Assembly: GCF_036409155.1 (NCBI RefSeq)
Contig: NZ_JAZGLW010000001.1
Location: 186,001 to 250,000, forward strand
Direction: 5' to 3'
DNA: 64,000 nucleotides
DNA from: Mycobacterium sp. 050128
GTDB taxonomy: Bacteria; Actinomycetota; Actinomycetes; Mycobacteriales; Mycobacteriaceae
Shown here in pieces: positions 14,271 through 20,430 of this stretch. A program made the translations under genes and the position numbers. The number at the start of each line of letters is the position of its first letter. Position 1 is the first letter of the stretch. A model generated the notes under the pieces. That model was not told the DNA's origin, did no database searches, and saw only the letters and a list, made by a program, of their open reading frames with translations.

Positions 14271-15482
14271 ATGACCGCATTCTCGACCGGTTCTCAGGGC
14301 CGCGACGCCGTCATCGTCGGCGCCGTCCGGACCCCGATCGGCAAGGGCAAGGCCAGCGGAGCACTGCACGACGTACTGCCGGTCGACCTGTTGGCGCACA
14401 GCCTGCGCGAACTGGTGGCCCGCACCGGTGTGGACCCGGCGCAGGTTGACGACGTCATCGCCGGGGCCGTCACCCAGGTTGGCGATCAGGCGGTCAACAT
14501 CGCGCGTAACGCGTTGCTGGGCGCGGGCTTCCCCGAGTCGGTTCCCGGAGTAACCATCGACCGGCAGTGCGGCAGCAGCCAGCAGGCCATCAGCTTCGCC
14601 GCCCAGGGCGTTATCGCGGGCGCCTACGACCTGGTGATCGCCGCGGGCGTGGAGTCGATGAGCCGCGTGCCGATGGGCACCCAAGTATTGCCGGGCAGCG
14701 ACCCGTTCGGCGAGGGTATGGCCGCGCGCTACCCCGAAGGGCTGGTGCCACAGGGCATCAGCGCCGAGCTGATCGCCGCCAAGTGGGGCTTCTCGCGCAC
14801 CCAACTCGACGAGTTCTCCGCCGGCAGCCACGACAAGGCCGCCCGCGCCACCAAGGACGGGCTGTTCGAGAACGAGCTGATCCCGATCGCCGGGCTGCAC
14901 ACCGACGAGATCATTCGTCCCGCCACCACGGTGGAGACGCTGGCCACGCTGAAGCCCGCGTTCTACAGCGAGAAGATGGAACAGCGCTTCCCGCAGATCA
15001 ATTGGGAGATCACGCCGGGTAACTCGTCGCCGCTCTCGGACGGCAGCGCCGCGGTGCTGATCACCACCAGCGAGGTCGCCAAGAAGCTGGGCCTGCGGCC
15101 GCTGGCGCGCATCCACACGACCACGGTGGTGGGCGATGACCCGCTCTACATGCTGACCGGCGTCATCCCGGCGACCGAGAAGGTACTGCAGCGATCCGGC
15201 CTGACGCTGGCCGACATCGACCTGTTCGAGGTTAACGAGGCCTTCGCGCCCGTCGTGCTGGCCTGGGCAAAGGACGTGGATAGGGAGCAGAGCGGCATAC
15301 TTGAACGGACCAACGTCAATGGGGGTGCCATTGCCCTTGGTCACCCGCTCGGCGCTAGCGGTGCCCGCATCATGACAACACTCGTCAACGCGCTCGAACA
15401 GCGCGGCGGACGCTACGCGCTGCAGACGATGTGTGAGGGCGGTGGCATGGCCAACGCGACCATCATCGAGCGGCTCCGCTAA
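14271..15482 (+). CDS. Acetyl-CoA C-acyltransferase (thiolase) with replaced 3' end
   Basis: A 403-residue thiolase that cleaves 3-ketoacyl-CoA or condenses acyl-CoAs. GAGGAGG precedes the ATG. The acylated Cys is Cys100 in DRQCGSSQQA; the catalytic His is in [10 protein letters not shown] and the second Cys in [11 protein letters not shown]. The tail after the VVLAWA codons (15252 on) is unusual: it reads KDVDREQSGILERTNVNGG where downstream copies read [15 protein letters not shown], four residues longer and with many synonymous changes. The body looks native, while the tail, which carries the catalytic His and Cys, appears brought in by recombination. Three partial copies of a thiolase 3' end follow downstream. 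No frame disruption is seen, so the enzyme is probably functional. Confidence 0.9.
   Translation: MTAFSTGSQGRDAVIVGAVRTPIGKGKASGALHDVLPVDLLAHSLRELVARTGVDPAQVDDVIAGAVTQVGDQAVNIARNALLGAGFPESVPGVTIDRQCGSSQQAISFAAQGVIAGAYDLVIAAGVESMSRVPMGTQVLPGSDPFGEGMAARYPEGLVPQGISAELIAAKWGFSRTQLDEFSAGSHDKAARATKDGLFENELIPIAGLHTDEIIRPATTVETLATLKPAFYSEKMEQRFPQINWEITPGNSSPLSDGSAAVLITTSEVAKKLGLRPLARIHTTTVVGDDPLYMLTGVIPATEKVLQRSGLTLADIDLFEVNEAFAPVVLAWAKDVDREQSGILERTNVNGGAIALGHPLGASGARIMTTLVNALEQRGGRYALQTMCEGGGMANATIIERLR
15252..15268 (+). repeat. 17-bp core shared by three thiolase tails (copy A)
   Basis: GTCGTGCTGGCCTGGGC occurs here, at 16741-16757 and at 20212-20228. Upstream of the core the three loci are unrelated (apart from four extra matching bases between copies A and B). 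Downstream, copy A differs from copies B and D, which match each other. This is the pattern expected of an attachment-site crossover, although the 17 bases are also simply the codons for VVLAW. Confidence 0.6.
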
Positions 15483-15548
15483 TAAGAGTCAACGAAGCGA
15501 CAGGGCCCTGCTTCATAGGCGTGGGGTTTCTATTAACTGTTGATCGCA

Positions 15549-16175
15549 CTACTTGACTCGAAGCCCGTCAAGCAGGGCGTTCAGCGCCCGCACTCCTTGC
15601 TCGCGCGCTACAAGTTGATCGGGTGCGTTCGCGATGAAAAGGGCGGCTTCGTCGGCAGCGGCGAGTAGAAGGTGCGCCAAAGCGTCAGTGGGCTGATTTA
15701 CCGCAAGGTCGCCCTCGTCGATGGCACGTTCAAGCATGGCCCGGATGGCCCCAAGTCCGTAGCGGCTTTCCAATTCACGCCACTTGACCCAGCCGAGGAC
15801 GGCTGGCCCGTCGATCAACAATATCCGCTGAACATGAGGAGTGAGCGAGGCATCCAGAAAGCCAATTAGGCCCTGCCGCAATTGGTTTAGCGCGCCGTCC
15901 GCAGGGTCGGCAAGGTTTTTTGCGGCCTCGACGACCAGGTCCTCTTCGACCGCAAGGAACGCCGCTTCGAATAGCGCCTGCTTATCCGCGAAGTGGTGGT
16001 AGAGCGCACCACGGGTGCCGACGCCAGCTTCTGCCACAACTTCTTGGGTGCCCGTTCGGTGATAGCCCTTTTCGACAAACAGCCGTCGAGCGGCAGCGAC
16101 GAGTGCGGCACGAGTGGCTTCTGCCTGCGCCGCCCGGCGCGCTTTCGTGTCTAGGGCCTCATCGTCAAGCGCCAC
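15549..16175 (-). CDS. TetR/AcrR family transcriptional regulator (cargo module 1)
   Basis: A 208-residue regulator. The helix-turn-helix is around residues 20-65 (ATRAALVAAARRLFVEKG, then EAGVGTRGALYHHFADKQALFEAAF). The remainder is a helical effector domain. It is divergent from the epoxide-hydrolase-like gene, 106 bases away, and a TACAC/GTGTA palindrome lies 18 bases from its start. Together they form the first cargo module between thiolase tails A and B. Codon use looks less strictly GC-rich than in the core genes, consistent with transfer. Confidence 0.88.
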   Translation of the reverse strand: MALDDEALDTKARRAAQAEATRAALVAAARRLFVEKGYHRTGTQEVVAEAGVGTRGALYHHFADKQALFEAAFLAVEEDLVVEAAKNLADPADGALNQLRQGLIGFLDASLTPHVQRILLIDGPAVLGWVKWRELESRYGLGAIRAMLERAIDEGDLAVNQPTDALAHLLLAAADEAALFIANAPDQLVAREQGVRALNALLDGLRVK

Positions 16176-16192
16176 TGCGCCAGCCTATTGCA

Positions 16193-16203
16193 TACACGGT
16201 GTA
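16193..16203. promoter_or_regulatory. TetR-type palindrome and direct repeats
   Basis: TACACGGTGTA is a perfect 11-bp palindrome upstream of the TetR gene. Just beyond it, TGTAGGTCACATACA, ATGTCACATACA and TTGTAGGTGA repeat related half-sites up to about 16242. The cluster probably controls both divergent genes. Confidence 0.5.
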
Positions 16204-16281
16204 GGTCACATACAGTCCGAATGTCACATACATCTTGTAGGTGATGCCCACTGATTCAGTCTGACGTGGAGGTTCCGCGAT

Positions 16282-19330: not shown

Positions 19331-19381
19331 CGGACAATCCTCTCCCGCCTTTGCTGCTCATCCAGCCGGCCATCCTTATTA

Positions 19382-19398
19382 CGAGAATATTTTTCTCG
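19382..19398. promoter_or_regulatory. TetR-type palindrome between P450 operon and TetR gene
   Basis: CGAGAA and TTCTCG flank TATTT, forming a 17-bp AT-rich inverted repeat. It lies 52 bases from the membrane-protein start and about 105 from the TetR start, inside the divergent intergenic region. It is a candidate operator for the adjacent TetR protein. Confidence 0.5.
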
Positions 19399-19502
19399 AA
19401 AATAGTCTCATGTTCGCAAGCCGATGTACACAGCTGGGTGTCCGGCCTCCTGGAGGCACGAGCAACAGTTAGGGCGCTGAATCTTGCCCTAAGGTTCTGC
19501 TG

Positions 19503-20096
19503 GTGAGTCAATCCCGCCGAGGACGACCCCGCAGCGCAGCGGCACATGGGGCGATCCTTGAAGCCACCCGCGCCCTGCTCATAGAAGGCGGATATGGGGC
19601 GGTGTCGATGGATAAGGTCGCCGCCGATGCCGGGGTGGGGGTGCAGACCGTATATCGACGGTGGCCGTCGAAAGGTCCCTTAGTGGCCGAGGCCGTCATG
19701 CAGGCCTACGCCTTGACCGACTTCACCCTGCCAAATACGGGCAACACCGTCGCAGACTTACGGACCTGGATGCACGAGTACGCCGCACTCAGTGCAGCGC
19801 CTGAAAACGTCGCGCTCGTCCGTGCCCTTGCCGCCGCCGCCGCTGAGGATCTACGAGACCGTGACACCTTGTACCAGCAACTCACGGACCGCTTCCACGG
19901 CGCTCTAAGGCACCGCCTACAGATCGGAATCTCAGTGGGTCACGTACGCGCAGACGCCGACATTGACGCTGCCGCCGACGCATTAATCGGAGCCACGCTG
20001 TATCGCATGCTCAGCGTCACGACATCGGTGGACGAAGCGATTGGACGTTATGACGGATTGATCGACACATTGATGAGTGGCCTGTCGATCCGCTGA
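19503..20096 (+). CDS. TetR/AcrR family transcriptional regulator (cargo module 3)
   Basis: A 197-residue regulator starting at GTG 19503 (MSQSRRGRPRSAAAHGAIL). The helix-turn-helix ends in VAADAGVGVQTVYRRWPSKGPL, the pattern of the subgroup with WPSK. The C-terminal effector domain is alanine-rich and helical. It is divergent from the P450 operon and likely represses it. It is the last gene before thiolase fragment D. Confidence 0.88.
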   Translation: MSQSRRGRPRSAAAHGAILEATRALLIEGGYGAVSMDKVAADAGVGVQTVYRRWPSKGPLVAEAVMQAYALTDFTLPNTGNTVADLRTWMHEYAALSAAPENVALVRALAAAAAEDLRDRDTLYQQLTDRFHGALRHRLQIGISVGHVRADADIDAAADALIGATLYRMLSVTTSVDEAIGRYDGLIDTLMSGLSIR

Positions 20097-20211
20097 TGGT
20101 TCGCCGCTTTGGGTTGATTGCCCCCTATGCCGCCCGAGGGGATCTTGCCGATGATGCGCGCATGGCGGGCTCCGGAATGCCCGCCGCCCGCGCCCGCAAC
20201 GTGGCATTCCG

Positions 20212-20430
20212 GTCGTGCTGGCCTGGGCTCACGACACCGGTGCCGACCTGGCCAAGACCAACGTCAACGGCGGCGCCATCGCGATCGGACATCCGTTGGG
20301 CGCCAGCGGCGCTCGCATCATGACCACAATGGTCAACGCCCTCGAACAGCGCGGCGGACGGTACGCGCTGCAGACGATGTGCGAGGGCGGCGGCATGGCC
20401 AACGCCACCATCATCGAGCGCCTCGGCTAG
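20212..20430 (+). pseudogene. Detached thiolase 3' end, copy D
   Basis: A 219-base thiolase tail starting exactly at the 17-bp core (20212-20228). It is identical to copy B for 209 bases, then ends CGCCTCGGCTAGGCG as in copy C rather than as in B. It is therefore a mosaic of B-like and C-like sequence. The reading frame is intact to the stop but has no start of its own. It closes cargo module 3. Confidence 0.88.

Follow-up and report, generated by a model that had tools for sequence, protein, structure and literature searches.

The 3′ end of a thiolase gene appears to be a recurrent landing site of phage-like elements and small gene modules in mycobacteria. The array described here lies in a stretch of 64,000 nucleotides (nt) of the 6.73-Mb genome of Mycobacterium sp. 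050128 (G000:C1:186001-250000, called the window throughout), in which a complete acetyl-CoA acyltransferase (thiolase) gene is followed by three displaced copies of its 3′ end with small groups of genes between them. It is likely that the thiolase end serves as the bacterial attachment site (attB) of phage-like elements with a large serine integrase, that every such element replaces the gene end, and that the inserts stack in layers.

An earlier note on this DNA, made from the letters alone, had described the thiolase gene and three partial ends behind it, B (219 nt), C (104 nt) and D (219 nt), and all of them were recovered where it had placed them (Table 1; the end of the intact gene is called tail A). 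A mechanical repeat search yielded copies at 15256, 16733 and 20204 and a shorter copy at 17540. The 17-nt core GTCGTGCTGGCCTGGGC was found at 15252, 16741 and 20212, at the starts of A, B and D, and the DNA preceding the B and D copies was indeed unrelated. Tails B and D were identical across 209 nt from the core (16741-16949) and had three differences just ahead of the stop codon. Tail A differed from both by its length (231 versus 219 nt), with a 12-nt insertion and strong divergence right behind the core, and tail C, which lacks the first ~115 nt, was 95.2% identical to D over 104 nt. When the whole genome was searched with tail B, the top four matches were B, D, A and C (410, 383, 202 and 152 bits), and the fifth was a thiolase elsewhere, the 143 bits of which come near the score of C. 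By score alone tail C is a weak match, and its assignment as a thiolase tail is supported by its position and orientation. Copies of 104-219 nt with 74-100% identity, all in one orientation and within 5.2 kb, are not due to chance.

The gene end was searched across 198 genomes of the genus, including the window's own, and stretches of up to 20 kb were examined from 135 other genomes of this sample, in all of which the gene was then found. Displaced tails, defined as matches downstream of the thiolase at E≤1e-6, were present in 13 of these 135 genomes: in loci L043, L044, L046, L050, L055, L056, L141, L149, L166, L185, L192 and L251 and in genome G173, where the displaced tail is on a second contig (L040). 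The first 20 stretches were biased toward genomes with extra tail matches, and the frequency is therefore rough; at least seven genomes with long matches were left out of the survey (G001, G007, G103, G163, G166, G189 and G193), and four surveyed stretches stop less than 1 kb past the gene. Two further genomes are excluded from the arrays, G008, whose tail lies at the edge of a contig, and G005, where parts of the gene are spread over two contigs. Searches with the integrase and the cargo added two genomes outside the 135, namely G238 (L252) with four displaced tails and G244 (L319) with three, and the total including the window was 24 displaced copies in 16 genomes. For L043, L050, L185 and L251, positions follow the thiolase orientation, opposite to the stored strand.

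Twelve of the 24 copies start at or within the core (tails B and D of the window, L043, L044, L046, L050, L141, L185, L251, L252_2, L252_5 and L040). Two extend 20-30 nt further into the gene (L056 and L166), and ten are truncated or degenerate (tail C of the window, the second copy of L050, L055, L149, L192, L252_3, L252_4 and the three of L319). The breakpoint is thus fixed irrespective of the cargo, including that of tails B and D; L043 and L050, which contain a common module, do not count as independent cases. The motif TGGGC was present at the core position in 132 of 134 thiolase tails, and in 133 of 138 loci an HxlR gene was no more than 1.5 kb away from the start of the thiolase. The DNA downstream of the thiolase varied by species and formed 32 single-linkage clusters, the largest with 76 loci, while 23 loci stood alone. 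According to the earlier note, the same tails in all relatives would have spoken against its reading; occupancy of the site differs between species, and the relatives do not all carry the same tails. A contig-level scan gave 80 loci, ten of which are close mycobacterial relatives at 82-88% identity. Tail B also matched 315 plasmid records: ten of the 15 that are listed at 74-77% are annotated as acetyl-CoA C-acetyltransferase, and four of the 315 match at 90-95%.

If inserts replace the gene end, the sequence of a displaced tail and the flank behind it is expected to recur as an intact gene end in species whose site is empty. Seventeen displaced tails with 700 nt of flank each were searched against the loci, and eight matched, across the join, the own tail and downstream DNA of an intact thiolase (L043, L044, L141, L149, L185, L251, L252_5 and L040). 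Six of these matches were clear (L043, L141, L149, L251, L252_5 and L040), with identities of 72-97%; the L040 junction was 96.5% identical to L058 and 95.2% to L185, while L141 and L251 reached only 72-81%. At the clear junctions of the relatives, as judged from this comparison, the displaced end is the native end of the gene. An NmrA-like gene region forms the native flank of the G238 stack and is found directly behind the thiolase in L151, L140, L139 and others. In L149, the NmrA-like gene itself is stacked on a 114-nt tail remnant that is joined to a carbon-nitrogen hydrolase gene, and the latter is directly behind the thiolase in L186, L171, L048 and others. The layers in G238 and L149 indicate that new inserts land adjacent to the gene.

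It had been proposed in the earlier note to look for an integrase between the tails of relatives, and this search was successful. A large serine integrase that starts within ~50 nt of a displaced tail was found in four genomes (L141 of G137, L251 of G159, L252 of G238 and L040 of G173). The L141 element comprises 9.3 kb between tails, with a major head protein, a head maturation protease, a replication initiator match and the integrase, which has the Pfam families Resolvase and Recombinase above the cut-off, the zinc ribbon below it, and a PHROG integrase assignment. A major head protein and the integrase are also encoded in the 10.4-kb element of L251. The integrase of L252 is open over 446 codons and takes the most distal position in a stack that includes small modules; that of L040 is frameshifted and adjoins the tail. 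Homologs at E≤1e-60 numbered 12 among 396 genomes of the genus, and the best four were the tail-adjacent ones; the other eight, and one from another genus, had no thiolase tail within 1.5 kb. The one from another genus was the single hit at this threshold among 298 genomes of the wider order, and no relatives were found in the viral contigs of IMG/VR. The four integrases were 44-84% identical to one another and, from three queries, 34-43% identical to the nine others, a gap that is narrow for the most divergent pair. The thiolase sequence common to the four integrase junctions comprises only a few bases ending in TGGGC. A small serine resolvase of 194-198 aa, separate from the large integrase, was observed in L252 (9108-9704, G238) and L039 (14999-15583, G173).

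The proposed mechanism would be as follows. The thiolase 3′ end would be the attB, with the crossover within or next to TGGGC, and its users would be small phage-like elements with a large serine integrase, candidate phage-inducible islands that resemble phiRv1 in size and gene content. Each element would bring a variant of the final ~220-235 nt of the gene that remains in frame. Upon integration, which the integrase probably catalyses, the resident 5′ part and the imported end would be fused, the gene would stay open, and the old end would come to lie beyond the insert. New inserts would adjoin the gene, and the youngest layer would be the one nearest to the thiolase. The window would then be a stack devoid of an integrase, with an imported tail A, three cargo modules, and the displaced tails B, C and D, of which C is eroded and D probably native. 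Of this mechanism, the relatives show the site, the replacement of the gene end, an integrase at the site in four genomes and a varying occupancy.

The view that tail A was imported is based on a difference between the gene end and the gene body. Bases 18-75 of tail A were closest, among the tails compared, to L252 (86%), L039 (84%), L043 (81%), L049 (76%) and L252_2 (72%), in contrast to 53% identity with tail B, and a separate tail comparison gave the same pattern. L039 and L252 are the thiolases of G173 and G238, the integrases of which are 84% alike. Because the tail is nearest to L252 and L039, while the gene body is nearest to L185, L051 and L058 (93% each), the thiolase end of the window was imported, probably from the pool used by elements of the G173/G238 type, and a relative of their integrase may have brought it. 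Tail A might also be a chimera of an imported first part and a module-linked last part. Tail D is probably the native 3′ end of the window thiolase and the oldest copy, because the identity of B-type tails with ordinary tails from other species reaches 93% and because its distal position fits the layering found in relatives. For the window, this order of events was deduced from the relatives; its own three junctions remained unmatched.

Several results weigh against this reading. Nine of the 17 junctions had no empty-site match, including all three window tails (D among them) with their present flanks. The proposal of the earlier note that insertion at a gene end leaves a displaced copy is supported by six clear junctions of the relatives and by none of the three in the window. 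Two further matches, L044 and L185, were ambiguous, as the start of the insert is itself flank-like. The link between tail A and the integrase consists of their co-occurrence in G173 and G238, with no direct left junction (attL), and in G173 the thiolase (L039) and the integrase (L040) are on different contigs. Module 1 of the window follows a 219-nt ordinary tail in G244 and tail A in the window, and therefore tail A and module 1 need not have arrived together. The earlier note had seen no integrase in any module; in the whole window neither an integrase nor a remnant of one was present, and the sole match, of 22 residues, was the tail read backwards. A search of the window's genome with PF07508 also gave no match; such an enzyme should have been detected, since the G137 integrase exceeded the cut-off (27.9 versus 21.1 bits). 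The genome contained no homolog of the tail-adjacent integrases at E≤1e-60 and only three small resolvases, next to 12 untyped tyrosine-recombinase matches. The right ends of the integrase-less modules, finally, were unlike those of the integrase elements (see below).

A tail length of 228-237 nt had been considered as proof of import and was dropped, which also tells against the proposed origin of tail A: 16 of 25 such thiolases belong to the commonest downstream cluster. Tail A together with the 52 nt preceding it had no match in phage records. In locus L049 (G047), an imported-type thiolase tail is followed by common downstream genes, and a displaced copy is absent over 16.8 kb; an element that was later lost may have left this scar.

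The positions of the thiolase gene, its tails and the cargo are compiled in Table 1. A Pfam scan confirmed the cargo that the earlier note had recognized between the tails. The modules had a G+C content of 59.5-60.9%, versus 66.0% for the window, and no phage family was found in them by the Pfam scan (PHROGs were not applied to the modules).

Table 1. Thiolase gene, displaced 3′ ends, cargo modules and flanking features of the window.
Feature	Position	Strand	Basis or remark
HxlR-type regulator next to the thiolase in divergent orientation (synteny anchor)	13709-14191	-	Pfam HxlR
Complete acetyl-CoA acyltransferase (thiolase) open reading frame	14271-15482	+	Pfam Thiolase_N and Thiolase_C
Thiolase gene upstream of the core, resident 5′ part	14271-15251	+	thiolase families
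Core GTCGTGCTGGCCTGGGC (17 nt) within the intact gene	15252-15268	+	contains TGGGC, common to core-bounded junctions
Tail A, imported thiolase 3′ end, 231 nt	15252-15482	+	likeness of bases 18-75 to L252/L039 tails
Module 1, TetR and LEH/SnoaL-like	15483-16740		
Module 1, TetR	15549-16175	-	Pfam
Module 1, LEH/SnoaL-like protein	16282-16695	+	Pfam
Displaced tail B, 219 nt, core at start	16741-16959	+	repeat search
Module 2, one 137-aa protein	16960-17539		
Module 2, 137-aa protein	17066-17479	+	no Pfam/NCBIfam match at E≤0.001
Displaced tail C, 5′-truncated, 104 nt, without core	17540-17643	+	repeat search
Module 3, P450, DoxX-like and TetR	17644-20211		
Module 3, P450	17701-18999	-	Pfam
Module 3, DoxX-like	19010-19330	-	under Pfam cut-off
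Module 3, TetR	19503-20096	+	Pfam
Displaced tail D, 219 nt, core at start	20212-20430	+	repeat search
Flank shared with L055	21301-22786		in L055 directly behind a 42-43-nt tail remnant

Two comparisons indicate that the small modules themselves move between species. Module 1 was also found directly behind the thiolase of G244, with 94.7% identity over 1166 nt, versus 83-91% for the thiolase body (in 150-nt steps), and the G244 stack beyond module 1 differs from that of the window. An FAD-monooxygenase module is common to L043 and L050, with 95.7% identity over 1534 nt and 92.5% over 494 nt that include the displaced tail, against a background of 86.4% across the thiolase and 82.4% in 5.7 kb of flanking DNA. 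The ~690 nt that precede this module in L043 are missing from L050, and ~970 nt within the L050 module are missing from L043. Tail and module are not strictly linked, since each pair combines a thiolase tail of 231 nt in one partner with one of 219 nt in the other.

To compare the right ends of the inserts, the 18 nt before TGGGC at 14 junctions were scored against a thiolase profile, with 4319 other pre-TGGGC positions as the null. The right arms of the four integrase elements had no clear thiolase likeness (p 0.08-0.57). In contrast, those of the ten integrase-less junctions were thiolase-like, with p≤0.006 in nine and 0.036 in L185. A test with 40 nt separated the groups less well (p 0.003-0.16 for integrase-less junctions, 0.07-0.71 for integrase elements). 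The integrase-less modules may hence not share the mechanism of the integrase elements, and several alternatives were considered for their entry.

It is quite conceivable, if short of probable, that the small modules were added by RecA-dependent homologous recombination through the tails, in which incoming DNA with the thiolase tail of another species and the gene behind it would recombine with the resident tail, and that integrase elements founded only some of the repeats. This would fit the identity of B and D across 209 nt and the retained thiolase-like right end at nine of the ten integrase-less junctions. L044 and L185 are also in line with it: the insert and flank of L044 are homologous units of a tail and an F420-dependent reductase gene (74.5% over 850 nt), and in L185 the tail and the start of the same module are repeated (83% over 313 nt). 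So are L166 and L056, which reach further into the gene than the other copies. However, recombination alone would not account for the common stopping point of unrelated right ends in 12 copies, unless each founder arose by a site-specific event, and between species the identity of the tails is mostly only ~75-93%.

That serine integrases supplied in trans, by elements already resident or newly arriving, moved the small modules at the same attachment site appears rather unlikely. The modules have the core in common with the integrase elements, end replacement was also found for the integrase-less inserts of L043 and L149, and the G238 stack holds an integrase and small modules together. Against this stand right arms that are unlike those of the integrase elements and the negative PF07508 search of the window's genome. 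Homologous recombination was rated somewhat higher than mobilization in trans, because tails B and D are identical over 209 nt and L044 and L185 contain homologous units.

It is doubtful that the integrase-less modules form a distinct class of mobile cassettes, each composed of a thiolase 3′ end, one to three metabolic genes and a thiolase-like half site. Such cassettes would circularize to an attB-like rather than an attP-like site. They would be inserted in order behind a housekeeping gene that receives a new end each time, and be moved by a recombinase encoded elsewhere.

A descent of the small modules from integrase elements by internal deletion is unlikely as well. Ten of the 24 displaced copies are truncated or degenerate, and the integrase of G173 is broken, which would fit. 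But deletion would leave the element's own right arm in place, and simple shrinkage is disfavoured because the right arms of the integrase-less modules are thiolase-like instead; moreover, the window is devoid of any integrase fragment. Whole-gene duplication of the thiolase with subsequent decay, which the earlier note had named as an explanation that would overturn its reading and to which the tandem order and thiolase likeness of every copy could point, has next to no probability and is refuted for the six clear junctions, since none of the displaced copies in the 16 array genomes is accompanied by a 5′ part of the gene, half of the copies start at the core, and the displaced tail is joined to the ancestral flank.

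The earlier note did not know the arrangement as a described system, which has to be corrected in part: stacks of gene-end-targeting elements that include members without a recombinase are known elsewhere. Staphylococcal cassette chromosome (SCC) elements use the 3′ end of rlmH and a serine recombinase, form tandem stacks and include members without a recombinase, all of which resembles the thiolase arrays. However, the restored end is short in SCC, while ~220 nt and an altered protein end are involved here, in another gene and host. The G238 integrase scored 28 and 26 bits with the CcrA and CcrB models, far below the cut-offs of 700 and 900. At fda, cis-mobilizable elements (CIMEs) and ICESt1 form tandem accretions of integrase-less units between attachment (att) sites at a gene 3′ end, and a structure of this type was found in the window, where module 1 and the B-D segment lie between core copies without an integrase. 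The parent element has a tyrosine integrase and is conjugative in that case, in contrast to the serine integrase and the phage-like parent proposed here. Prophage e14 and phage 21 supply a divergent functional end to icd of Escherichia coli and displace the native one; the end replacement is alike, and the tyrosine integrase and the lack of a cargo stack are different. Integron gene cassettes are likewise small modules added in order at one site, whereas here the end of a host gene is part of the unit.

Candidate phage-inducible chromosomal islands (PICIs) are described for Mycobacterium in PMC10654092, some with serine integrases and in a group that includes phiRv1 and phiRv2. The words thiolase and acetyltransferase are absent from its main text. 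As far as they are described there, these islands are elements with an integrase and a head protein, which fits L141 (9.3 kb, also with the replication initiator match) and L251 (10.4 kb); the window differs, as cargo only and no integrase or phage gene was found. No description of a thiolase attB in mycobacteria was found in a limited literature search, a weak negative. Within the limits of this search, there is no earlier description of the thiolase site, of an exchanged coding end of such length or of the two junction types.

The hotspot would represent a stratified route by which mycobacteria gain P450s, FAD monooxygenases, F420-dependent reductases, regulators and other genes, and the C-terminal ~75 residues of a metabolic enzyme would be exchanged in the process. 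The stacks should allow the order of acquisitions to be read, and they offer a testable case of the spread of modules without an integrase. The thiolase core is a candidate att site for integration tools.

Homologs of the cargo were searched among 392 genomes of the genus, including the window's own. The limonene-epoxide hydrolase (LEH)-like protein was found in 44 and the P450 in 84 of the 392, and among the 20 loci examined for each, thiolase tails were nearby only at the window's own loci and in G244. At G000:C1:1486233-1486640, the genome of the window encodes another homolog of the LEH-like protein with 84% identity.

Two ideas about the tails were rejected. A second breakpoint inside the tail, as an explanation of the truncated copies, was discarded, as these start at differing places, and an inverted-repeat dyad at the core was dropped, as four other centres along the tail scored higher. 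The truncated tails (tail C of the window, L319, L050, L055, L149 and L252) mostly retain the last 40-130 nt and have lost the core side; L056 and L192 are exceptions. Between tail D and the flank shared with L055, the stretch 20431-21300 (~870 nt) contains small open reading frames, one of 194 aa, with no family matched, and is perhaps an older module without a tail. Lastly, a gene pair that looks ESX/WXG-like by eye was observed behind the thiolase tail of three species, with ~95% identity, in L185 (2473-3884, oriented), L058 and L040 (1813-2569). It matched no Pfam family, and its resemblance to the ESX-secreted toxin systems of PMC10654092 is a lead only.

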